Positions 2,564 through 33,105 of a stretch of DNA of 33,105 nucleotides are shown piece by piece. The position numbers and the translations under genes are program-made. The notes beneath the pieces were generated by a model that saw nothing but the letters and a program-made list of their open reading frames with translations, had not been told where the DNA came from and did not search any database. The stretch comes from Clostridiales bacterium (GTDB taxonomy: Bacteria > Bacillota_A > Clostridia > Christensenellales > Christensenellaceae): assembly GCA_003149735.1 (NCBI GenBank), contig QANA01000042.1, positions 1 to 33,105 on the forward strand, in the 5' to 3' direction. Every line of letters starts with the position of its first letter. Positions within the stretch are counted from its first letter, which is position 1.

Positions 2564-3220
2564 TTAAAGAACCCCTTTCATAACCAATATGAAGAAAATA
2601 CAGGTTACCAGCAGCACAAATGCTACCAATAGCAAACCAATTTTCTTTCCATTGTCAATCCGCTGGCCGCTATCTTGCGGCACCTCTACCAAATTGGCTT
2701 TTCGCAAAGCCTGTACAATCGGCTTATAAATTAATAATGTCAAAGCAGTATTCAGACCACCTTTCAAAAGGTTGAAGGGAAGAAAAGCCGGAAGCAATAA
2801 CTCCGCCACTGCCTCACGCGGATATCCCATATAAATAGGCGTAATCAAATAATTCCACAGCAACATAATAATTGTCATAGCAAAAGTTCCGCATACTAGC
2901 CCTGTTACAGCACCGGATAGCGTATGTTTCTTTTTATAAATCCATGCTGCTGTACAGGCAAAGCTACAGCTGCCAAGAATATTCATCACACAGCCGATCA
3001 ATCCAGTATCACTGGCGGTCAACATCTCAACAATTGAAACAATCGCAGAGATAATAAAGGAAGTCAGCGGACCAAACAAGAAACCGCCAATTGTGATTAC
3101 CACATCTTTAGGTTCATACTTTAAGAAAAGCACTACCGGAATCCTGACGACTACAACGACTACATAGGCAACAGCGCATAGCATTGCCACCATCGTTAGT
3201 TTTTTAGTTTTGGCATTCAT
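2564..3220 (-). CDS. ribU: ECF transporter S component, riboflavin type (RibU-like)
   Basis: This 218-residue very hydrophobic protein has about six membrane segments. Its N-terminal helix (KKLTMVAMLCAVAYVVV) has the Ala-rich face that S components use to contact the ECF energizing module. It would bind riboflavin and hand it to the shared EcfA/A'/T module, which is not encoded here. The open frame runs further upstream, but the ATG at 3220 is chosen because AGGAGGTG lies at 3228-3235 and the upstream part lies in the riboswitch terminator. The FMN riboswitch in the leader is the best evidence for riboflavin as substrate. A soluble-looking linker (about 170-190) precedes the last membrane segment. 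Confidence 0.9.
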   Translation of the reverse strand: MNAKTKKLTMVAMLCAVAYVVVVVVRIPVVLFLKYEPKDVVITIGGFLFGPLTSFIISAIVSIVEMLTASDTGLIGCVMNILGSCSFACTAAWIYKKKHTLSGAVTGLVCGTFAMTIIMLLWNYLITPIYMGYPREAVAELLLPAFLPFNLLKGGLNTALTLLIYKPIVQALRKANLVEVPQDSGQRIDNGKKIGLLLVAFVLLVTCIFFILVMKGVL

Positions 3221-3250
3221 TCCAAAACACCTCCTGAAAACAGTAAAATA

Positions 3251-3290
3251 AAAGAAAAAACACCCGAAACACAGAAGTGCCTTTCGGGTG
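3251..3290 (-). terminator. FMN riboswitch attenuator terminator
   Basis: On the minus strand a perfect 9-bp stem (3282-3290 with 3261-3269), possibly extended by an inner CAC/GTG pairing, is followed by TTTTTTCTTTT. It lies between the aptamer and the ribU-like start, so it is the expression platform: FMN-bound aptamer would favour termination. Confidence 0.9.
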
Positions 3291-3345
3291 TCAAAAACGA
3301 TGTTTACCAAAGGAAATACCGATCATTTCCGATTCATTTTTTTAC

Positions 3346-3480
3346 ACATCTTCTTTCATCCAGACTATAACTGTTGGTCTTGGAATTTCACCAAATCTGC
3401 TCGTTATACCTATCATCAAGTACAAACAAGCGCGCGGACTCTTACCGCCAATCGGGAATTTCACCCTGCCCTGAAGACAT
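3346..3480 (-). promoter_or_regulatory. FMN riboswitch aptamer (RFN element)
   Basis: Read on the minus strand, the conserved RFN blocks appear in order: GGGCAGGGTGAAATTCCCGA, GGCGGTAAGAGTCCGCG, GGTGAAATTCCAAGACC, and ACAGTTATAGTCTGGATG. The ends can pair as P1 (ATGTCTTC with GAAGATGT). It sits about 55 nt upstream of its terminator and 125 nt upstream of the ribU-like start. The family senses FMN and turns off riboflavin uptake or synthesis when FMN is plentiful. Confidence 0.96.
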
Positions 3481-3512
3481 TTCATACATGATTCAGTTGT
3501 ATTACGGTGTTA

Positions 3513-3696: not shown

Positions 3697-3772
3697 TGGC
3701 AGGGGAGACGCGACTCGAACACGCAACCGGCGGTTTTGGAGACCGCTGCTCTACCAATTGAGCCACTCCCCT
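3697..3772 (-). tRNA. tRNA-Trp (anticodon CCA)
   Basis: The minus strand gives a 76-nt cloverleaf. The acceptor stem pairs AGGGGAG with CTCCCCT, and the discriminator G is followed by a genome-encoded CCA. The D arm is GGCTCAATTGGTAGAGCA, the anticodon stem GCGGT/ACCGC carries the loop CTCCAAA, and the T loop contains GTTCGAGTC. The anticodon CCA reads UGG, so it carries tryptophan. It stands alone with its own promoter and terminator. A short open frame across it is spurious. Confidence 0.97.
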
Positions 3773-22665: not shown

Positions 22666-23694
22666 TCAATTTACTTTTACTTTTCCAGCCAACACCAATT
22701 TGTAATCCTCATAATTACGTTTTAATAACTCCGGAGTGTCCAAGCCATACGGACATTTGTTTTTGCATTGACCACAATGTATGCAATCTTCGATTTTTTT
22801 CATCATTTCCTGCGCTTGTGGTGTTAAATGCCCAGCAGAAGGCGATCTGCGCAACAAAAGCGACATTCTTGCACAAGTATTGATTTGAATTCCTGCCGGG
22901 CAGGGCATACAATATCCACATCCGCGACAAAATTCTCCCACCAGTTCCTGCTTTTCCTTTTGAATAAAAGCCTGGCGTTCCTCAGTCATAGCCGCTGGCT
23001 CCTGCATATAACTTAGCCATTCATCCAATTCACTTTCCTTCTGAATTCCCCAAATAGGCAAAACGTTATCAAATTGAGCCATATACGCAAATGCAGAAGC
23101 GGAATCTGTAATTAATCCTCCTGCAAGGCCTTTCATTGCAATAAAGCCCATATTTGCAGCTTTACATTTTTGCACCAACTCCAACTCTTTTTCCGAAGAT
23201 AAATAGCTGAAAGGGAACTGCAATGTTTCATACAAACCAGAATCAATTCCTTCATGTGCCACGCTCAGAATATGATTCGTCATTCCAATATGACGAATCA
23301 TCCCTTTTTCCTTAGCTTCCAGCATGCATTCATACATTCCACTTCCATCGCCCGGTTTATAGCATTGCTTAGGCCAATGAAACTGATAAAGATCAATATA
23401 ATCTGTCTGCAGATTTTTCAGTGATGTATTTAAGTCCTTCCAAAAATCTTCCGGCGTTTTCGCTGCGGTTTTAGTAGCAATAAATACCTTTTCACGCATT
23501 CCAGCAAATGCATTACCTAATTTTTCTTCACTGTCAGAATAAGCTCTGGCTGTATCAAAAAAAGTCATACCGCCCTTATATGCCTTGCGCAGAATATGTA
23601 CCGCGGTCTGCATATCTACTCTTTGTATAGGCAAAGCCCCAAAAGCATTTTGCGGTGTTGTAATACCAGTCTTTCCCAAAGCAATCATCTTCAT
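22666..23694 (-). CDS. Aldo/keto reductase with C-terminal ferredoxin-like domain
   Basis: A 342-residue protein combines an AKR TIM barrel (about 1-245) with a tail holding two Fe-S motifs: CRGCGYCMPCPAG and CIHCGQCKNKCPYG. The AKR catalytic tetrad appears intact: Asp47 and Tyr52 (FFDTARAYSD), Lys75 (FIATK) and His106 (YQFHWP). Such fusions are common in anaerobes, and the clusters suggest ferredoxin-like electron delivery alongside or instead of NADPH. No substrate can be named. It is the second gene of a pair, 21 bp downstream of a paralogous AKR, under a MerR-type promoter. Confidence 0.9.
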   Translation of the reverse strand: MKMIALGKTGITTPQNAFGALPIQRVDMQTAVHILRKAYKGGMTFFDTARAYSDSEEKLGNAFAGMREKVFIATKTAAKTPEDFWKDLNTSLKNLQTDYIDLYQFHWPKQCYKPGDGSGMYECMLEAKEKGMIRHIGMTNHILSVAHEGIDSGLYETLQFPFSYLSSEKELELVQKCKAANMGFIAMKGLAGGLITDSASAFAYMAQFDNVLPIWGIQKESELDEWLSYMQEPAAMTEERQAFIQKEKQELVGEFCRGCGYCMPCPAGIQINTCARMSLLLRRSPSAGHLTPQAQEMMKKIEDCIHCGQCKNKCPYGLDTPELLKRNYEDYKLVLAGKVKVN

Positions 23695-23715
23695 TTTTAT
23701 ACCTCACATAGATGT

Positions 23716-24864
23716 TTATTTTTCAAACAATGTCATAGCAGCCTGCATATTTTCCCGAACCGGCACGCCAAACGGGCAACGTTTTTCGCATAATCCGCAA
23801 CCAATACAATCGCTAGCATAATGTTCTAATATACGGTAATGTTCTCTAACTGTTTCGGGAATTTCTCCTTGAGCTTTTGCAAGATTAAGAAATTTTGTTA
23901 CTGATGCAATATCTATTCCCTTAGGGCAAGGAGCGCAATGTCCACAGTACATGCAATGTCCTTCCCAACTAATTTTAGGAAGCGCAGCAAGAGCAACTGC
24001 ATAATCTTTTTGCTCTGCTTCCGCAGTTTCATAGCCCAGACATTCCTTTAATTCTTCTTCCGTATGTGTACCTACCATTACCGAAGCCACTGCCGGACGT
24101 GTCAATGCATAATGCAAACATTGATAAGGAGTCAAAGCCTTTCCGGCTGGAGAAAGTGATTCATTCAACAAATCCCCTCCGCCAAAAGCCTTCATCACTG
24201 TTATTCCCACCCCTAAGCGCTGACAAGCTTCATAAAGAGCTTCTCTTTCAGGATCCATATTCAGCAATGTTTTATCATAGCTGTGCTCATCAAATAGTAC
24301 TTCAATATCTTCTGTAGCCGGCAATAAATCATAGCAGGGATTAATACTGAACATCAATACATCTATCATACCATTCTTTACCGCCTTCAAAGAAACAGAA
24401 GGATTATGACTGCTCATGCCAATATAGCGTATTTTCCCTGTTACCTTTAATTCTTGTGCATATTGCAGAACCTCTCCCTGGCTGACTTCTTCCCAATCTT
24501 TTTCCGCGTCTACATAATGAATCATGCCAATATCAATATAGTCTGTCTGTAAACGTGATAATAAATCTGCAAAACCTTCTTTTACTTCGCTTAATGCACG
24601 CGTTCTTTTATACTGCCCATTTTTCCAAACCGAACAAATATGTGCCTGTAAAATAAAATTTTCTCGTCTCCCTTTAATTGCAAACCCGATATTGCTGCGC
24701 ATATCTGGATTCGGGGAATACAAATCCATGCAATTCACGCCTGCATTCATAGCTATATCCATAAGCTGCCTGGTTTGCTCCAAATCTTTTCCCATAAATC
24801 CCTCGCAGCCCAATCCGATCTCACCGACCTCCAGTGCCGTCTTTCCCAATTTCCGATAAATCAT
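23716..24864 (-). CDS. Aldo/keto reductase-like Fe-S protein with altered catalytic residues
   Basis: A 382-residue paralogue of the next gene has the same architecture: an AKR barrel and two C-terminal cluster motifs (CMYCGHCAPCPKG and CIGCGLCEKRCPFG). By position the AKR tetrad is Asp47, Asn52 instead of Tyr, His75 instead of Lys (FILQAHIC) and His116 (MIHYVD). It may therefore not do standard carbonyl reduction. The start ATG at 24864 has AGGAGG five bases upstream and fits the usual MxYRKLGKT opening. The longer frame from 24900 is rejected. It is the first gene of the two-gene unit. Confidence 0.88.
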   Translation of the reverse strand: MIYRKLGKTALEVGEIGLGCEGFMGKDLEQTRQLMDIAMNAGVNCMDLYSPNPDMRSNIGFAIKGRRENFILQAHICSVWKNGQYKRTRALSEVKEGFADLLSRLQTDYIDIGMIHYVDAEKDWEEVSQGEVLQYAQELKVTGKIRYIGMSSHNPSVSLKAVKNGMIDVLMFSINPCYDLLPATEDIEVLFDEHSYDKTLLNMDPEREALYEACQRLGVGITVMKAFGGGDLLNESLSPAGKALTPYQCLHYALTRPAVASVMVGTHTEEELKECLGYETAEAEQKDYAVALAALPKISWEGHCMYCGHCAPCPKGIDIASVTKFLNLAKAQGEIPETVREHYRILEHYASDCIGCGLCEKRCPFGVPVRENMQAAMTLFEK

Positions 24865-24898
24865 GACAACCTCCTCAAGAATTATCATTATCATATAC

Positions 24899-24929
24899 AT
24901 ATTACTATTTAAAGTGCACTCGAAGTCAA
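24899..24929 (-). promoter_or_regulatory. MerR-type promoter (19-bp spacer) for the aldo/keto reductase pair
   Basis: TTGACT (24929-24924) and TAATAT (24904-24899) are separated by 19 bp. The spacer is centred on the palindrome AGTGCACT. Over-long spacers with a central dyad are the mark of promoters activated by DNA-untwisting MerR-family regulators such as SoxR or AdhR. No merR-like gene is in this window. Confidence 0.65.
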
Positions 24930-26304: not shown

Positions 26305-27075
26305 TCAACCTTCGTGATTTTTCTGATAAATGATATGCAGGCCATGCAACGTCAGCAAACTATCAATGACGTCAATCATCTGCGTTTCGGAAGCAATTGT
26401 TTCTGCCATCCCTCCCGTGGCAATAACTTTCGCTTCCGCGCCCAATTCTGATTTCATTTTCCGCAATATATAATCAACCTGTCCAACATATCCATACAGA
26501 ATACCAGATTGCATACATGCTATCGTATTCCGATTGATTACCCGCTTAGGCTTAATCAATTCCACCTTGGGAAGTTTTGCCGTATTATTTGTTAGCGCAT
26601 TCGCCGAAACAATCAAACCCGGACAAATTGCGCCACCCAAAAATTCCCCTCTTTTTGAAATTGCTCCAAAGGTCGTTGCCGTACCAAAATCTACGGTAAT
26701 ACAGGGGCCGCCATATAATTCATAAGCGGCCACTGCATTTACGATTCGATCCGAGCCCAATTCCTTAGGGTTATCATATAAGATATTAATACCTGTCTTG
26801 ATGCCGGGTTCTACAAAACATGGGCGCTTTTTAAAATAGGTTTTACACATATGTTCTATCGTATAATTGATAGAGGGAATTACAGAAGAAATCATAATAT
26901 CTTCAACTTCTTCCGGCTTCAGATGCAGATAGTCCAAAAATGAAATCATCTTGATTCCGATTTCATCCGAAGTTACATGCATCTTTGTTGCCATACGCCA
27001 AGAATTGCGCAATTTTCCCTTTTCAAATAATCCACACTTAATATTTGTATTTCCGACATCTATAACAATGAGCAT
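26305..27075 (-). CDS. coaX: Type III pantothenate kinase
   Basis: This enzyme starts coenzyme A synthesis by phosphorylating pantothenate. It belongs to the ASKHA superfamily and is not inhibited by CoA. Motifs seen: phosphate loop IDVGNTNIKCGLF at 5-17, GSDRIVNAVAAYELYGG from 107, Asp129 and the following loop VDFGTATTFGAIS, and a C-terminal ATGGMAE. At 256 residues it has typical length. It follows the ECF S component gene by 20 bp, pairing the kinase with a probable pantothenate importer; phosphorylation would trap the vitamin. Confidence 0.96.
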   Translation of the reverse strand: MLIVIDVGNTNIKCGLFEKGKLRNSWRMATKMHVTSDEIGIKMISFLDYLHLKPEEVEDIMISSVIPSINYTIEHMCKTYFKKRPCFVEPGIKTGINILYDNPKELGSDRIVNAVAAYELYGGPCITVDFGTATTFGAISKRGEFLGGAICPGLIVSANALTNNTAKLPKVELIKPKRVINRNTIACMQSGILYGYVGQVDYILRKMKSELGAEAKVIATGGMAETIASETQMIDVIDSLLTLHGLHIIYQKNHEG

Positions 27076-27095
27076 TCTGTTTTTCCCTTTGAATT

Positions 27096-27683
27096 TTAAT
27101 TTTTTGCCTTTTTCCGAAGCATTTTTTCAACTGCTACAATAATCGGCCCACAAATCAAGGCTGCTGCCAAAGCTTCACAAGACCCGTTTAAAGCTCCCAC
27201 GCCCGCAATAATTGCCAATACTCCTGAAGCATCAATACCTGAAATAACATAAAAAAGAAGCATCAGCCCCAAATAGAAGATAGTATTGGTCAACGAACCG
27301 GCAATCGGTGCTACAATGGCTGCCAAAGTTTGATTCTTTTTACCAATCATCAAATAAATCCATCTGGCAATAATCGGCACCATCAAGCGCGCCCCTACAG
27401 ACATTATAATCACCAAAATTGGACTCACAGCCATCAACGGTGCTAACAACGCAGAAGTAGCTGTAAACGCTTTCCAAACACTGGTTAATCCAAATACAAG
27501 CCCTAACAACAAGCCCACTTTGGAGCCACATAAAATTGCACCAATAATGACAGGAATATGCATCGTTGTCACATTTGCAGGCGGAATTGGAATAATACCA
27601 ATGTTTGTGAGTCCCAACACCAAGGTTACTGCGGCCAACATGCCAGTTACGGCAATCGTTCTGACCTTACTACTGTAATTCAT
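27096..27683 (-). CDS. ECF transporter S component, probably pantothenate (PanT-like)
   Basis: This 195-residue membrane protein has about six hydrophobic segments, including IPPANVTTMHIPVIIGAIL, a block typical of one S-component family. The N-terminal helix (RTIAVTGMLAAVTLVLG) has the small-residue face for docking to EcfT. It would depend on an EcfA/A'/T module encoded elsewhere. The ATG at 27683 has GGAGG just upstream, so the longer frame to 27818 is rejected. Pantothenate is inferred only from coaX lying immediately downstream. Confidence 0.85.
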   Translation of the reverse strand: MNYSSKVRTIAVTGMLAAVTLVLGLTNIGIIPIPPANVTTMHIPVIIGAILCGSKVGLLLGLVFGLTSVWKAFTATSALLAPLMAVSPILVIIMSVGARLMVPIIARWIYLMIGKKNQTLAAIVAPIAGSLTNTIFYLGLMLLFYVISGIDASGVLAIIAGVGALNGSCEALAAALICGPIIVAVEKMLRKKAKN

Positions 27684-27826
27684 TTGTTCCTCCGTTCCGG
27701 TTCCACTGTCCCGCCGCCTTTTTTCAAGAAACTGGCTGGAGCTTCTTTTACAGAATACTCCGCATATCAGATGTTTCTCAGCAATCAAATTCGGCCAACT
27801 GATGTGGATACCCGACATTTTTATTT

Positions 27827-28350: not shown

Positions 28351-28387
28351 AAATAAAAAAATCGGGCTTCGAAAAACTCGAAGCCCG
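28351..28387 (-). terminator. Intrinsic terminator of the redox operon
   Basis: On the minus strand a 10-bp stem (CGGGCTTCGA 28387-28378 with TCGAAGCCCG 28372-28363) and loop GTTTT are followed by ATTTTTTATTT. It lies 15 bp past the ferredoxin-like gene. Confidence 0.93.
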
Positions 28388-28402: not shown

Positions 28403-28651
28403 TTATTTGAGTGTTGGCAAAACCTCTTTAACAAAAAACTCTTCTGTGTTATTTTCATTTAAAGAAAAGGATTTCCCATCAAAAGTAGTGCTGACTCCAC
28501 GCTGGCAGTTTCCAGTGCAGAAAATGCCAGCCAGTTCTACCTTATCTGCCACCTGATAGGTCTTTACCAGCGTTTCCAATTGTTCCACTACTCGCGCTGA
28601 CCCTTTTACGTGGCAAGCGCTGCCAATACATACTGTAATCTTTTTCTTCAT
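28403..28651 (-). CDS. Thioredoxin-like [2Fe-2S] ferredoxin
   Basis: An 82-residue protein with the NuoE/ferredoxin-like thioredoxin fold. The four cluster ligands are Cys8 and Cys13 (CIGSACHVKGS) and Cys45 and Cys49 (FCTGNCQRG). Such domains feed electrons between flavin and Fe-S subunits in NADH-oxidising complexes and bifurcating hydrogenases. It is the last gene of the redox operon, 4 bp after the membrane protein gene, suggesting that it is an electron carrier or small subunit for that complex. Ribosome site AGGGATAAG precedes the ATG. Confidence 0.88.
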   Translation of the reverse strand: MKKKITVCIGSACHVKGSARVVEQLETLVKTYQVADKVELAGIFCTGNCQRGVSTTFDGKSFSLNENNTEEFFVKEVLPTLK

Positions 28652-28655
28652 CTAC

Positions 28656-28952
28656 TTATCCCTGAGCTCCATTCTCTGCCTTACGTTCAATTGCACGATT
28701 GCGGAAATAAAGCGCTATATCTGTACATACCATAATTACATTAGGGAAATAGAACCAAAATGCCAGATTATAAGTATGTGTCAGACATTTAGAAATAATG
28801 CCGCAAATATAACCAAAGCAAATAAAGCAGCTAAACATAAGGCTTTTGCCTTTTGTAGAGCGTGAACGATAAGAGCGCACAATCGAAAGCGGCCATGAAA
28901 TACCGAAACTGACAATCATCAACGTTTCCAGGATATTTGCTAAATTTTCCAT
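28656..28952 (-). CDS. SemiSWEET / PQ-loop-like membrane protein
   Basis: This 98-residue protein has three membrane helices (about 7-27, 38-56, 63-85), the size of a SemiSWEET triple-helix bundle. The first helix ends in SWPLSIVRSYRSRSTKGKS, resembling the PQ-loop pattern with Pro21 and a Ser-x-Lys-Gly, and helix three has Pro70-Asn71, like the SemiSWEET PN motif. Known relatives move sugars or other small solutes as dimers. Here it sits inside a redox operon, so carriage of an organic acid or another role is possible; this is inference. The ATG at 28952 is preferred over a TTG at 28961, which is too close to AAGGAA. Confidence 0.75.
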   Translation of the reverse strand: MENLANILETLMIVSFGISWPLSIVRSYRSRSTKGKSLMFSCFICFGYICGIISKCLTHTYNLAFWFYFPNVIMVCTDIALYFRNRAIERKAENGAQG

Positions 28953-28984
28953 AGGATACAATACTTCCTTTAAATCAAAATTTT

Positions 28985-30589
28985 TTAAAGCGTATTTCTC
29001 TTGCGCGTATAATCAGGCAAAAGTTTCGGAGAAACAATTTCGCTATGAATGCCTGCTTCTTCCATTTCCTTGGCAAACTTGTTCACATGCGAAAGTGTCA
29101 AATTCCCTACTTTTGTGTTCCGGCTCTTAGCCGCAGCATTTTTGCCGGCACTTCTGCCAAAAACGATAATATCCAACAACGAGTTACCCATCAAACGGTT
29201 TCTTCCATGAATTCCGCCAACCGCTTCACCAGCAACAAAGAGATTTTCAACACCGGTCATTCCGTCAGGCGTAATCTGCAAACCGCCATTTTGATAATGC
29301 AACGTCGGATAAACCAGAATCGGCACTTTGCGAATATCAATATCATATTTTGCAAACATACGCATCATTGCCGGAATTCTTTTTTCGATGGTTCCTTCTC
29401 CGCCTTTCATCTCAATCATAGGCGTATCCAGCCATACTCCCACACCATTTCCGGTATTTACACCTTTGCCATTCGTAGAGCATTCGCGAATAATGGAAGC
29501 AGCAGAAACATCTCTGGTCTCCAACGGATGCATGAAAGCTTCACCTTCCGAGTTGATCAGCATAGCGCCAACCGAGCGCACTTTTTCTGTTACCAATGCT
29601 CCGAAAATTTGCTCCGGATAAGCTACTCCGGTAGGATGATACTGCAAAGTATCTGCATACAATAACTTCGCCCCAGCACGATAACCGAGAATCAATCCGT
29701 CAGCCGTAGCACCATAATGATTGGATGTGGGGAAGCCTTGATAATGCAGTCGGCCAGCACCTCCGGTTGCTATAATTACCGTCTTAGCGCGGGCAATTTT
29801 GATTTCTTTGGTTTCCATATTGAGTAATACAGCACCAGCCGCCTTACCCTCATCATCCAAAATCAGCTCAATTGCAGCTGTAAAATCCACTACCGGAATG
29901 CCACGGTTGAGTACTTCGTCCCGCAGAGTGCGCATAATCTCAGCTCCGGAATAGTCTTTCGCTGCGTGCATTCTCTTTCTGGAAGTACCACCACCATGCG
30001 TTGTAATCATGGTGCCATCCGCCGCTTTATCAAATTCAACGCCCAATTCGTTGAGCCACTTAATTGCTTCCGGCGCTTCCATTACCAGTTTGGAAAGAAG
30101 CTCAGGCTTATTGGTAAAATGTCCGCCGCCCATTGCGTCCAAATAGTGAATTGCAGGAGAGTCATTAGGTTTATCCGCAGCCTGGATTCCGCCTTCTGCC
30201 ATCATTGTATTGGCATCACCAATGCGCAGTTTGGTAACAATCATTACCTTAGCACCCGCTTCATCCGCTTCGATTGCAGCAGATGAACCTGCGCCGCCAC
30301 CGCCGATTACCAATACATCAACATCATAATCCACATGGGATAAATCAATCTTTGCGGGATTAATTCGGCTGTTTGCCTGTAAAAGTGCAGCCAATTCTGT
30401 AGGAACTTTTTCCCCTTTGTTAGGGCCTACTTGCAAAACTGCAAATTCATTCTGCTTATAGTCCGGATGATAGGTTGCAAGGAGGGTTTCTTTTTCCTCA
30501 GCAGTCATCCGTCTGGGTTCAAGCGCAATATTCTTCGCTCTCGCCGCTTCCACTTTCTTCATGGATTCCAGTATTTCACCACTGTACAT
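28985..30589 (-). CDS. Fumarate reductase-like flavoprotein (FrdA/TfrA type)
   Basis: This 534-residue FAD-dependent reductase has no signal peptide. A unique N-terminal extension (about 1-88) precedes the Rossmann FAD loop VIGGGGAGS (around 95-102). Active-site residues of the fumarate reductase family match by pattern: His318 (YHPTG), Arg338 (TEKVRS), His431 (LHYQNGG) and Arg465 (GRNRLMGNS). The His that binds FAD covalently in Frd/Sdh is replaced by Asn127 (ANTMMAEGG), so FAD should be non-covalent. RGEGG is changed to RSVGA. Fumarate is the likeliest acceptor, but other enoates are possible. The ATG at 30589 has AAGGAGG upstream; the longer frame to 30613 is rejected. Confidence 0.88.
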   Translation of the reverse strand: MYSGEILESMKKVEAARAKNIALEPRRMTAEEKETLLATYHPDYKQNEFAVLQVGPNKGEKVPTELAALLQANSRINPAKIDLSHVDYDVDVLVIGGGGAGSSAAIEADEAGAKVMIVTKLRIGDANTMMAEGGIQAADKPNDSPAIHYLDAMGGGHFTNKPELLSKLVMEAPEAIKWLNELGVEFDKAADGTMITTHGGGTSRKRMHAAKDYSGAEIMRTLRDEVLNRGIPVVDFTAAIELILDDEGKAAGAVLLNMETKEIKIARAKTVIIATGGAGRLHYQGFPTSNHYGATADGLILGYRAGAKLLYADTLQYHPTGVAYPEQIFGALVTEKVRSVGAMLINSEGEAFMHPLETRDVSAASIIRECSTNGKGVNTGNGVGVWLDTPMIEMKGGEGTIEKRIPAMMRMFAKYDIDIRKVPILVYPTLHYQNGGLQITPDGMTGVENLFVAGEAVGGIHGRNRLMGNSLLDIIVFGRSAGKNAAAKSRNTKVGNLTLSHVNKFAKEMEEAGIHSEIVSPKLLPDYTRKRNTL

Positions 30590-30602
30590 CTGTTTTTCCT
30601 CC

Positions 30603-31277
30603 TTATTTCTCAATCTCGCGGTTATTATAAAGTTCTTTCAATTCCTCAATCGGTTTCTGCATTAAGTTTTCAATCAAAGCGTTGAAATCGCCGTTCTGAA
30701 TCTCTTCTACCCGATGATTCAGATGTTCTGCCTTAGGAGCAATATATTTTCCGTTCAGGCGACGAGCCAATAAGGCAACCTGAGGATGAGAAATTCCTGC
30801 CGGGCATCTGGAAGAACATACTCCGCACATTACGCAGTCAAAAGATTCTTCTGCACATTTCTCATACTCACCACGTTGTGCATAAGCAATATATTGCATT
30901 ACATTAAGTTCCTGCGTACAGCTCTTCGTGCAGGCATTACAACCAATGCAGCTGTAAATTTCCGGATAAAGCTGCATCATAATCTGCTCAGTCGGCTTAA
31001 CTTTATTAATATCGTATACCTGCTTTTCCAAGGGGAAGAAAGGCAACGTAGCAATATACATATCCTCTTGCACTTGTGTCTGGCAAGCCAAGCATGCATG
31101 CAGTTCGCGTTCACCTTTGATACGATAGATTGTCGCGCAAGCGCCACAGAAACCATTTCTGCAACCGCAGCCACGCACCAACTGATAGCCTGCATATTCC
31201 ATGGCGCCCATAATCGTCAGGCTGGCAGGCACTTCATATTTTTTACCCATCAGGAATACATTTACCATTTTTTCCAT
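30603..31277 (-). CDS. Fumarate reductase-like iron-sulfur protein (FrdB/SdhB type)
   Basis: A 224-residue soluble electron-transfer subunit. The N-terminal plant-type [2Fe-2S] domain has GCGCRNGFCGAC (Cys39, Cys44, Cys47, with Cys37 extra) and Cys62 and/or Cys65 (ACLAC). The C-terminal domain has two four-Cys motifs: Cys110, 113, 116, 120 (CIGCNACTKSC) and Cys148, 151, 154, 158 (CVMCGVCSSRCP). SdhB/FrdB normally carries [2Fe-2S], [4Fe-4S] and [3Fe-4S]; here both distal motifs have four Cys, so two [4Fe-4S] clusters are expected. It lies 13 bp upstream of the flavoprotein gene. Ribosome site AAAGGAG is 13 bp from the ATG. Confidence 0.9.
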   Translation of the reverse strand: MEKMVNVFLMGKKYEVPASLTIMGAMEYAGYQLVRGCGCRNGFCGACATIYRIKGERELHACLACQTQVQEDMYIATLPFFPLEKQVYDINKVKPTEQIMMQLYPEIYSCIGCNACTKSCTQELNVMQYIAYAQRGEYEKCAEESFDCVMCGVCSSRCPAGISHPQVALLARRLNGKYIAPKAEHLNHRVEEIQNGDFNALIENLMQKPIEELKELYNNREIEK

Positions 31278-31298
31278 GTCCCTGTTCTCTCCTTTTAA

Positions 31299-32126
31299 TT
31301 AATACTCGTTCGGAAGTTCTCCCAATTGATCGAAACGGAATACCGGGCCATCCTTGCAGACATATTTAGATCCGATATTGCATCTGCCGCATTTGCCAAT
31401 ACCACACTTCATTCGTAACTCCATTGTGGTATAGACCTGTGTATCCTGGAACCCCAGTTCTTTCAATCCGGCCAGCGTAAACTTAATCATAATGGGTGGT
31501 CCGCACATAAGAACCGTCTTGCGAACATCTGGATTCAATTCCTTTACATAGTTAGGAACAAAACCGACATGGCCATCCCAGCCCTCTTGTTCACGGTCAA
31601 TTGTTAAGTTGACTTCAATGCCCTCGTCAGCCATCCATTCATTGATGATCTCCTGATAGTCCACCAAATCATCTTTCGAACGAGAGCCGTAAATAATTTG
31701 TACACTGCCATAATTCTGACGATTATCCCGTACGTAATTGATAACGGAACGCAAAGGGGCTAATCCAATGCCGCCGGCAATAAATAACAAATCCTTACCT
31801 TTTAAATCGCTTTCCACCGGAAATCCATTACCATAAGGGCCGCGAATGGTGATCTGCTGACCAACTTCCATTTGATGCAGCCATTCCGTTACACAACCAC
31901 ATCTCTTAATGCTGAATTCCATATATTCCCGATTAGTAGGTGAAGAAGTAATGGAAAATAACGCTTCTCCCACCCCAGGCATGGAGAGCATCGCACATTG
32001 CCCGGGAATATGTTCAAAAACCTTCTTGCCATCCAGCCCCAGTACACGGAATGTTTTTACATCCGGCGTATCTGTACGAATATCGGTAACTACGCCCAAT
32101 TTTGGAATCAACGCTTCTATATTCAT
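31299..32126 (-). CDS. FAD/NAD(P)H-binding reductase subunit (AsrB / HydG-gamma / PyrK-like)
   Basis: A 275-residue ferredoxin-NADP reductase-fold protein. It has an FAD domain (about 10-105) with FSITSSPT and an NAD(P) domain with FIAGGIGLAPLRS (115-127) and MCGPPIMI (207-214). A C-terminal [2Fe-2S] site follows with Cys241, Cys246, Cys249 and Cys257 (KCGIGKCGRC). This matches the gamma subunit of archaeal sulfhydrogenases, AsrB and PyrK, which pass electrons between NAD(P)H and Fe-S partners. Its ATG overlaps the upstream stop in ATGA, so it is translated coupled to the AsrA-like subunit. It is the likely electron entry point of the complex. Confidence 0.92.
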   Translation of the reverse strand: MNIEALIPKLGVVTDIRTDTPDVKTFRVLGLDGKKVFEHIPGQCAMLSMPGVGEALFSITSSPTNREYMEFSIKRCGCVTEWLHQMEVGQQITIRGPYGNGFPVESDLKGKDLLFIAGGIGLAPLRSVINYVRDNRQNYGSVQIIYGSRSKDDLVDYQEIINEWMADEGIEVNLTIDREQEGWDGHVGFVPNYVKELNPDVRKTVLMCGPPIMIKFTLAGLKELGFQDTQVYTTMELRMKCGIGKCGRCNIGSKYVCKDGPVFRFDQLGELPNEY

Positions 32127-33105
32127 TTGTCTTCTCCTTCAAGAGCCTTCATAACCTTCACAATATTCATGGAAATCGGACATTTCTGCAGGCAACGGCC
32201 ACATCCTACGCAGCCAAACTCTCCATTGTTATTCATGGGGAAATAGATCAGCTTGTGCATAAATCTCTGACGAAAACGTTCCAATTGAGTCAGGCGCGGC
32301 TGACCACCGGCCATCTTGGTAAAATCAGAATACATGCAACTATCCCAGCAACGGAACCGCTTAATGCCTTTTCCTGTATTAAAATCCCGGATATCATAAC
32401 ATTGACAAGTCGGGCATACAAATGTGCATGTACCACAACCCAGACAAGCTTCGGAAAGCTCTGCCCATTTGGAAGAATTAAAGACTTCCAGCTGTTCCCT
32501 GTTTTCAAAATGCTTTGTTGAAAGCTTCGCAAGTGGCAGTTTGTCCAAAACAGCCTGTATCTGCTCTTTCTGAGCGTTCACTGCTGCCTCATCTGCCTCC
32601 TCTAACAAGTTATCCACAGAGGCAAGCAGCGCTTCTCCCTTTTCGCTCTGGGCCTGAAAATAAATGGCATCTTGCGTCTTCCATGCTGCAACGTCTCCCT
32701 CCGGATGTGCTGCATTAATGGCAAAGGTCTGGCAAAAACAGGTTTCTTCCGGCTGTGTGCAAGCCAATGCAACAATTGTTCCGTGTTCGCGTCTGGACTT
32801 ATAATAGGTATCTACCGGATTCGCCAAAAACACTTTATCCAATATGGCAAAGCTACGCACATCGCAAGCTCTCGCACCAAAAATCACAAAATCCTCTGCT
32901 TCTGTACGCGGGTCGATAATTTCAATTTCTTTTCCCTTTACTTTAAAATCTACCAGATTTTCAGTCTGAGGAAAAAAGAAATCTTTAGCACTACGCACAG
33001 TATTATGATCTTCCGAAAGCTGCATGCCCATTTCCCATCTTTGGAACTGTGCCTGTCCACCTTTGTTTTCTGTCGGAATATACAATGCTTCTTTTTTTGC
33101 AATTT
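32123..33105 (-). CDS. AsrA / sulfhydrogenase beta-like [4Fe-4S] protein (5' partial)
   Basis: The frame stays open through the window end (ending residues read IAKKEALYIPTEN), so a short N-terminal piece is missing. The protein has the AsrA/HydB pattern: FGARACDVRSF, CTQPEETCFC, then CLGCGTCTFVCPTCQCYD and CVGCGRCLQKCPISMN, giving two [4Fe-4S] clusters. In sulfhydrogenase and anaerobic sulfite reductase this subunit relays electrons from the FAD/NAD(P) subunit to the catalytic part. Here the catalytic part appears to be the FrdA/B-like pair. A TTG at 33085 could be mistaken for a start but has no ribosome site. Confidence 0.92.
   Translation of the reverse strand, partial: IAKKEALYIPTENKGGQAQFQRWEMGMQLSEDHNTVRSAKDFFFPQTENLVDFKVKGKEIEIIDPRTEAEDFVIFGARACDVRSFAILDKVFLANPVDTYYKSRREHGTIVALACTQPEETCFCQTFAINAAHPEGDVAAWKTQDAIYFQAQSEKGEALLASVDNLLEEADEAAVNAQKEQIQAVLDKLPLAKLSTKHFENREQLEVFNSSKWAELSEACLGCGTCTFVCPTCQCYDIRDFNTGKGIKRFRCWDSCMYSDFTKMAGGQPRLTQLERFRQRFMHKLIYFPMNNNGEFGCVGCGRCLQKCPISMNIVKVMKALEGEDK

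Follow-up and report, generated by a model that had tools for sequence, protein, structure and literature searches.

We analysed a stretch of 33,105 nucleotides from a Clostridiales bacterium (contig QANA01000042.1 of assembly GCA_003149735.1; hereafter the window), which ends inside a reverse-strand operon for a soluble fumarate reductase and its electron-input subunits. Only the downstream half of this succinate operon lies within the window, which thus carries a truncated copy of a published operon type, of a known, still hypothetical kind. From the gene sets of its relatives, we consider it probable that the soluble fumarate reductase (FrdBA) is the output of a bifurcating Flx-Hdr complex, the two being encoded together in the operon FumC-HdrB-HdrC-HdrA-MvhD(FlxD)-FlxC-FlxB-FlxA-FrdB-FrdA. 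The names FlxA to FlxD are given by resemblance and are what we take these subunits to be.

Flx-Hdr genes lie upstream of FrdBA in the relatives

Of 6880 candidates, 6819 proved homologous to the FrdB of the window at E <= 1e-10 (at least 120 in the list of best matches); among the matches listed, one named as Pseudoclostridium thermosuccinogenes is 85% identical, and the window's own FrdB protein stands on 24 contigs, of which the longest is 470 kb. A scan of genome contigs gave 412 relatives; we retained the 80 best, so that this close set is biased to near kin. Counts of operon genes take only the loci with enough flank. The best match among three genomes searched, locus L001, has a FrdB 96% identical to that of the window and a block with 79% DNA identity. 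Its gene order is FumC-HdrB-HdrC-HdrA-MvhD-FlxC-FlxB-FlxA-FrdB-FrdA-small protein-[2Fe-2S] protein.

We observed the same upstream set throughout the close loci: HdrB in 61/61, HdrC in 62/62, HdrA in 69/69, MvhD/FlxD in 72/72, FlxC in 76/76, FlxB and FlxA each in 78/78 and FrdA in 80/80, with FumC heading the operon in 54/58. The downstream genes were rarer, the small protein being matched in 14/66 and the [2Fe-2S] protein in 7/66 loci. Gene order was kept in 79 of the 80 loci; the exception, L002, is cut within FlxA, and its sole HdrA-type match (48 bits) lies downstream.

In the draw from the class, FrdB was carried by 54 of 391 genomes. For thirty of these loci (L087-L116) the upstream sequence is 1.5 kb or less and gives no information on Hdr; FlxB, FlxA and FrdA were each present in 30/30. 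The other 24 are lower-scoring and more distant, and wider stretches were taken for them. HdrA was found in 22/24, HdrB and HdrC in 20/24, MvhD, FlxC and FlxB in 23/24 and FlxA in 24/24, and for every missing Hdr, MvhD or Flx gene the flank was too short. In L140 the genes are rearranged and still together, as FrdB-FrdA-HdrB-HdrC-HdrA-MvhD-FlxC-FlxB-FlxA. The class-draw counts and the L140 block therefore indicate that the nine genes stay together as a unit even when their order changes. Because HdrABC, MvhD and FlxC lie upstream in the relatives, the AsrA- and AsrB-like proteins of the window are best read as FlxB and FlxA, the NADH-input end of a Flx-Hdr complex. HdrA is the electron-splitting flavin subunit of the methanogen heterodisulfide reductase; the L001 HdrA aligns with the methanogen HdrA 5odc_A over positions 3-660, including the lysine at residue 409, which presumably acts near the flavin.

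The initial annotation had proposed a self-contained NAD(P)H:fumarate reductase of four subunits, possibly bifurcating. A soluble FrdAB fed by an NAD(P)H module, bearing fumarate-site residues and lacking an anchor gene in the visible operon, stands, as does possible bifurcation. Self-containment does not stand, given HdrABC, MvhD and FlxC upstream in the relatives. The annotation had named a hydrogenase, a sulfite reductase or a cytochrome b upstream as findings that would speak against it; none is among the upstream genes of L001, the other loci having been searched for the operon's own genes only.

The operon in the window

The six reading frames between 33103 and 28403 all lie on the reverse strand (Table 1). 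The AsrA-like and AsrB-like frames share an ATGA overlap, and the following gaps are 21 bases (AsrB to FrdB), 13 (FrdB to FrdA, ATG at 30589), 32 (FrdA to the SemiSWEET-like gene, ATG at 28952) and 4 (to the [2Fe-2S] protein). These frames and the hairpin at 28387-28363 bear out the six same-strand genes, the spacings and the terminator of the initial annotation. The FlxB frame is open at its 5' end and is about 15 codons short compared with its L001 homologue.

FlxB matched the NCBIfam models NF040829 (3e-53), NF040833 (9e-47) and TIGR02910 (1e-44), and PDB chain 9nez_B at 5e-42; FlxA matched NF006220 (1e-69) and TIGR02911 (1e-59), and 9nez_C at 1e-57. Judged by sequence, the relationships to AsrA/sulfhydrogenase-beta, AsrB/sulfhydrogenase-gamma, FrdA/TfrA and the thioredoxin-like [2Fe-2S] protein are clear, with the NCBIfam matches below their curated cut-offs. 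The annotated identities thus held for these four; the FrdB-like one is weak by models while its motifs fit, and the SemiSWEET-like one is weak. For the small protein, CTP_transf_1 (0.0013) outscored PQ-loop (0.012), both below the Pfam cut-offs; from its operon position, it is a possible organic-acid exporter. The four visible redox subunits have two flavin domains and six cluster motifs in total, so the two flavins and about six clusters counted earlier are right for the visible part. The statement that anchor, hydrogenase and sirohaem subunits are lacking applies to the visible operon and does not extend to the whole operon, the first gene being cut.

Table 1. Features of the succinate operon in the window.
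Feature	Position	Strand	Basis and remarks
FlxB (AsrA / sulfhydrogenase-beta-like) iron-sulfur subunit	32123..33105	-	two CxxCxxCxxxC motifs; 5' end cut by window end
FlxA (AsrB / sulfhydrogenase-gamma / PyrK-like) FAD, NAD(P)H, [2Fe-2S] subunit	31299..32126	-	PF00175, PF00970, PF10418, cluster motif
FrdB-like subunit	30603..31277	-	cluster motifs: [2Fe-2S] once, [4Fe-4S] twice, [3Fe-4S] absent; second half resembles HdrC
FrdA flavoprotein, fumarate reductase catalytic subunit	28985..30589	-	NF004900 TfrA 5e-104, below cut-off; residue alignment to 1nek, 7d6v
Small protein, PQ-loop/SemiSWEET-like (weak)	28656..28952	-	PQ-loop E = 0.012
Thioredoxin-like [2Fe-2S] protein (NuoE/HoxE C-terminal-domain-like), accessory	28403..28651	-	PF01257 at 27.3 bits (cut-off 24.8)
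Terminator-like hairpin at the operon end	28363..28387	-	11 pairs and T-run

FrdB and its possible link to HdrB and HdrC

Family models supported FrdB weakly (TfrB, 2e-9; RnfC, 7e-10), whereas its cluster motifs fit FrdB: the CxxCxxCxxxC motif occurs twice, together with a [2Fe-2S] motif, in 80/80 close loci, and the mean column identity was 89% over 12 chosen rows. In this protein of 224 amino acids, a second [4Fe-4S] motif takes the place of the usual [3Fe-4S] one. In complex II, the [3Fe-4S] centre faces the quinone. Window FrdB matches positions 19-93 of the 488 of TfrB. The TfrB of methanogens joins in one chain a FrdB-like part (19-93), an HdrC-like part (117-220) and an HdrB-like part (265-487), and in five relatives HdrC-HdrB alone stands beside FrdB(A). 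The likeness to the one-chain TfrB and these HdrC-HdrB-FrdB loci suggest that HdrB contacts FrdB and hands over electrons to it.

An alternative is that the Flx-Hdr complex reduces a disulfide and makes reduced ferredoxin, while FrdAB is fed by the resulting thiols in the manner of TfrAB (CoM-SH, CoB-SH), the two being joined functionally and not physically. Both CCG cluster motifs of HdrB are kept in 61/61 near-full-length close copies, and among the named models FrdA scores highest with TfrA (348.9 bits, where the family cut-off is 718). The thiol-dependent part of TfrB is its HdrB-like half, and it is this half that FrdB does not have; to our knowledge, CoM and CoB are not expected in Clostridia. 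The accessible part of PMC7282089 mentions electrons passing to ferredoxin (and thiols). On balance, we regard such a thiol-linked route as unlikely.

FrdBA with other input modules across the phylum

A draw from the phylum of genome G272 comprised 398 genomes, 39 of them with a FrdB relative; 38 gave new neighbourhoods (L153-L190), and the 39th, G272 itself, is L140. Modules were classed from same-strand tblastn matches above 40 bits. The full Flx-Hdr set was found in 5 of the 38 neighbourhoods. In nine, plus two that are cut upstream, FrdBA is preceded by HdrCBA with further HdrA-like matches, by MvhD and by a weak match to FlxC; five have HdrC-HdrB alone beside FrdB(A), one of these (L190) being a 3.8-kb contig. 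The remaining 17 carry no Hdr module, which shows that FrdBA can do without Hdr; three of them (L153, L185, L189) have less than 2.5 kb upstream and a downstream flank that exceeds 10 kb. In L157 a single 41-bit HdrC-type match falls inside another protein.

Five of the Hdr-less loci were read in detail. A class I fumarase and a malic enzyme adjoin FrdBA in L154 and likewise in L183 (where the alpha part of the fumarase was scanned); L157 has a fumarase and SucCD nearby, and L161 a pyruvate carboxylase. L187 has a NapC-type or other cytochrome c, and neither fumarase, malic enzyme, SucCD nor pyruvate carboxylase was identified there. These metabolic neighbours of FrdBA point to fumarate and succinate. 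Genes for FMN-binding and 4Fe-4S proteins stand beside FrdBA at L183:6676-8304 and L157:10661-11590, with a cytochrome c also in L183, which suggests a membrane electron route to the soluble fumarate reductase. In L169, KorAB-like (2-oxoacid:ferredoxin oxidoreductase) genes follow FrdBA and a 1092-residue HdrA-like protein precedes it (L169:5516-7668 and L169:11787-15062, reverse strand). An MvhD/FlxC fusion in this locus is not claimed, as a family scan of the candidate frame matched nothing.

A quick FrdA plus FrdB tree, with SH-aLRT support only, was built from 72 rows, 13 of them from the close set of 80, 22 from the 24 distant loci of the class draw and 37 from the 38 phylum-draw neighbourhoods; L120, cut upstream, was labelled Flx-Hdr through its MvhD and Flx genes. 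The Flx-Hdr label needs four changes on this tree, all four forced by well-supported branches. We lean, by a little, towards viewing FrdBA as a quinone-free fumarate reductase core of Clostridia and the phylum with exchangeable electron-input modules: Flx-Hdr in the class-draw carriers, HdrCBA with a second HdrA-like protein and MvhD, HdrBC alone, and single cases beside cytochrome c or FMN-binding/4Fe-4S membrane-type proteins. The idea that one FrdBA core accepts different input modules may be the new part, our literature search not having been aimed at module exchange.

These loci also bear on whether AsrA-AsrB-FrdB-FrdA alone could form a soluble NAD(P)H:fumarate reductase without Hdr. The four genes are contiguous, their two flavin domains and six cluster motifs would suffice for a simple path from NADH to fumarate, and FrdBA does occur without Hdr in the 17 phylum-draw loci, although no Flx genes matched there either. 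On the other side, HdrA, MvhD and FlxC are found upstream in all close and class-draw loci whose flank is long enough. In L140, L156 and L162-L164, moreover, the order is altered while the Hdr-MvhD-FlxCBA set is intact and FrdBA moves as a pair. A four-subunit enzyme of this kind thus appears improbable.

Active site and flavin of FrdA

Aligned with E. coli SdhA (1nek) and mycobacterial Sdh1 (7d6v), FrdA keeps His318, Thr334-Glu335, Arg338, Arg359 (read from the 1nek alignment), His431 and Arg465, which we take to have the same roles in its fumarate site. These residues were invariant across a 12-row alignment. The HPTG, TExxR, LHY and NRL motifs were found in 73/73 near-full-length close copies and the RD motif, with Arg359, in 72/73. 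An AlphaFold model (pLDDT 66) confirmed the FRD/SDH/NadB fold with middling TM-scores. Residues 1-90 (window 30589-30320) form a conserved N-terminal extension ahead of the FAD domain and beyond the region that aligns to complex II flavoproteins; this extension is possibly a docking part.

The position of the histidine that binds FAD covalently is an asparagine (Asn127) in all 73 of these copies, so the FAD of FrdA is probably non-covalent. The accessible part of PMC9557727 describes soluble bacterial fumarate reductases, and likewise E. coli L-aspartate oxidases, whose FAD is bound non-covalently, as catalysts of fumarate reduction only, without activity in succinate oxidation. Because of Asn127 and this behaviour of non-covalent-FAD enzymes, the enzyme probably works one way, towards fumarate reduction.

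This bears on the proposal that the complex runs in reverse, oxidising succinate with confurcation, or that it acts on another enoate. Some bifurcating complexes are reversible, and the flavoprotein superfamily includes other enoate reductases (urocanate reductase, flavocytochromes). The asparagine, the retained fumarate-site residues, the fumarase heading the operon in most close loci and the class I fumarase, malic enzyme, SucCD or pyruvate carboxylase beside FrdBA in L154, L157, L161 and L183 argue against it, and we consider it very unlikely.

Proposed mechanism, energetics and quinones

Gene order, cofactor motifs and fumarate-site residues were read from the sequence, and from them we infer every step of the following electron path. 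NADH would donate a hydride to the FAD of FlxA, from which electrons would pass through its [2Fe-2S] cluster, the [4Fe-4S] clusters of FlxB and FlxC and the [2Fe-2S] cluster of MvhD to the bifurcating FAD of HdrA. Of each electron pair, one would go to ferredoxin and the other through HdrC, HdrB and FrdB to the FAD of FrdA and fumarate. The net reaction would be 2 NADH + fumarate + oxidised ferredoxin -> 2 NAD+ + succinate + reduced ferredoxin, and neither a quinone nor a membrane anchor would be needed. The fumarate potential is +30 mV. Taking NADH at -320 mV and ferredoxin at -420 mV (accessible part of PMC5861303), the coupled reaction was computed to yield about -48 kJ/mol, and -33 kJ/mol with ferredoxin at -500 mV.

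Several observations weigh against a bifurcating Flx-Hdr-FrdBA complex. The window itself displays no Hdr genes, their presence here being taken from the relatives, and FumC was found in 0 of the 24 distant class-draw loci. The occurrence of FrdBA with other modules or with none weakens the case for a fixed nine-subunit enzyme. RnfC was over the cut-off in only 26 of the 54 FrdB genomes, which means that the user of reduced ferredoxin varies. The disulfide-type clusters of HdrB would also fit a thiol-linked path. An AlphaFold model of FrdB was left unused (pLDDT 43). In the accessible part of PMC7282089, bifurcation is itself an assumption. Lastly, the top NCBIfam model for the L001 HdrB is SdhE, at 142.5 bits against a cut-off of 500, and the model for HdrB itself follows closely at 141.7 bits. 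As SdhE is the anchor of the 8-methylmenaquinol:fumarate reductase, the HdrB sequence on its own leaves the quinol route open; this SdhE-type match would equally fit an HdrB that touches FrdAB.

The possibility that the HdrB-like subunit acts like SdhE, with a quinol also feeding FrdBA, draws on this best model, which lies far below its cut-off and scores almost equally with HdrB. FrdB, moreover, has no [3Fe-4S] motif. MenA was over the cut-off in 0 of the 54 FrdB genomes (two had weak matches) against 6 of 14 controls, and mqnC in 0 of 54 against 2 of 14, the completeness of the carrier genomes being not stated. Weak mqnC matches in 45 carrier genomes are as expected of the radical-SAM family. 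As neither gene reached its cut-off in any of these 54 genomes, the enzyme probably works without a quinone, and a quinol-fed FrdBA is the least credible of these alternatives, being highly improbable.

A sulfhydrogenase or sulfite-reductase remnant was rejected because the models lie below cut-off and the context is Hdr. The AsrB model TIGR02911 gave 201.8 bits of the 288.6 needed, and the AsrA model TIGR02910 gave 153.1 of 323.2 bits for the cut FlxB and 152.8 for the full-length FlxB of L001; AsrC was absent from the L001 upstream genes. Likewise, the sulfhydrogenase (HydBG / ShyBC) beta and gamma models were below cut-off, and no [NiFe] subunits were found among the visible or the L001 upstream genes.

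Comparison with known systems

The Desulfovibrio FlxABCD-HdrABC NADH dehydrogenase/heterodisulfide reductase, reportedly described by Ramos in 2015, is said to consist of FlxA, FlxB, FlxC, an MvhD-like FlxD, HdrA, HdrB and HdrC. The subunit set here is alike, but FrdBA at the output end would provide a defined electron acceptor. Compared with TfrAB, window FrdA has TfrA as its best model and yet stays under the TfrA family cut-off, and FrdB resembles the N-terminal part of TfrB without the HdrB-like (CCG) half, a separate HdrB being present in the operon of the relatives. With the membrane quinol:fumarate reductase (FrdABCD) the window shares FrdA sequence, fold and catalytic residues; unlike complex II, its FrdA has no covalent-FAD histidine and its FrdB has two [4Fe-4S] motifs. 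No known anchor family was found among the visible genes, and among the upstream genes of L001 the only match of this kind was that of HdrB to SdhE, below cut-off.

The closest precedent is the 'succinate operon' of P. thermosuccinogenes, described in the accessible part of PMC7282089 as a fumarase (FH), Flx-Hdr, a fumarate reductase (FR) and a hypothetical protein, with bifurcation possible and expression up about 4-fold under CO2 limitation; for this operon the paper cites the preprint 10.20944/preprints201912.0288.v1. We infer that the 85%-identical FrdB belongs to this published operon. Going by that part of the paper, the composition (fumarase, NADH dehydrogenase/Hdr, fumarate reductase and small protein, there called a potential succinate transporter) is common with the relatives of the window, whereas in the window the small gene is followed by that of an additional [2Fe-2S] protein, and the sequence ends before FlxC and Hdr are reached. 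Our search of the open-licence literature found no biochemical test of these operons. In reverse tricarboxylic acid cycle (rTCA) clusters of Gammaproteobacteria, tfrAB is interspersed with flxABCD-hdrABC, and the authors suggest a complex passing electrons directly to fumarate reductase (accessible part of PMC6315080). Those clusters, as described there, also have korABCD and belong to autotrophs, whereas the operon here is headed by a fumarase; the KorAB-like genes and HdrA-like protein of L169 recall them.

Other features of the window

An FMN riboswitch (RF00050, 112 bits) at 3344-3482 on the reverse strand lies upstream of a membrane-type protein (2564-3310), which is perhaps a riboflavin transporter, and a tRNA lies at 3700-3772. 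By reading of the translations, two neighbouring genes at 22666-24900 (reverse strand) encode aldo/keto-reductase-like proteins whose C-terminal parts bear ferredoxin-like cysteine motifs, and at 26305-27818 (reverse strand) a pantothenate-kinase-like (CoaX) gene adjoins a probable ECF transporter S component.

Significance

The record titles of the close relatives include Ruminococcus, Oscillospiraceae and Lachnospiraceae, and many come from animal gut samples. If bifurcation is true, each succinate formed would also yield reduced ferredoxin for Rnf, hydrogenase or biosynthesis, and the class-draw carriers would conserve energy during succinate formation without a membrane. Calculations of succinate and H2 yields in the gut would then change, and fumarate would join the acceptors of HdrA-type bifurcation.

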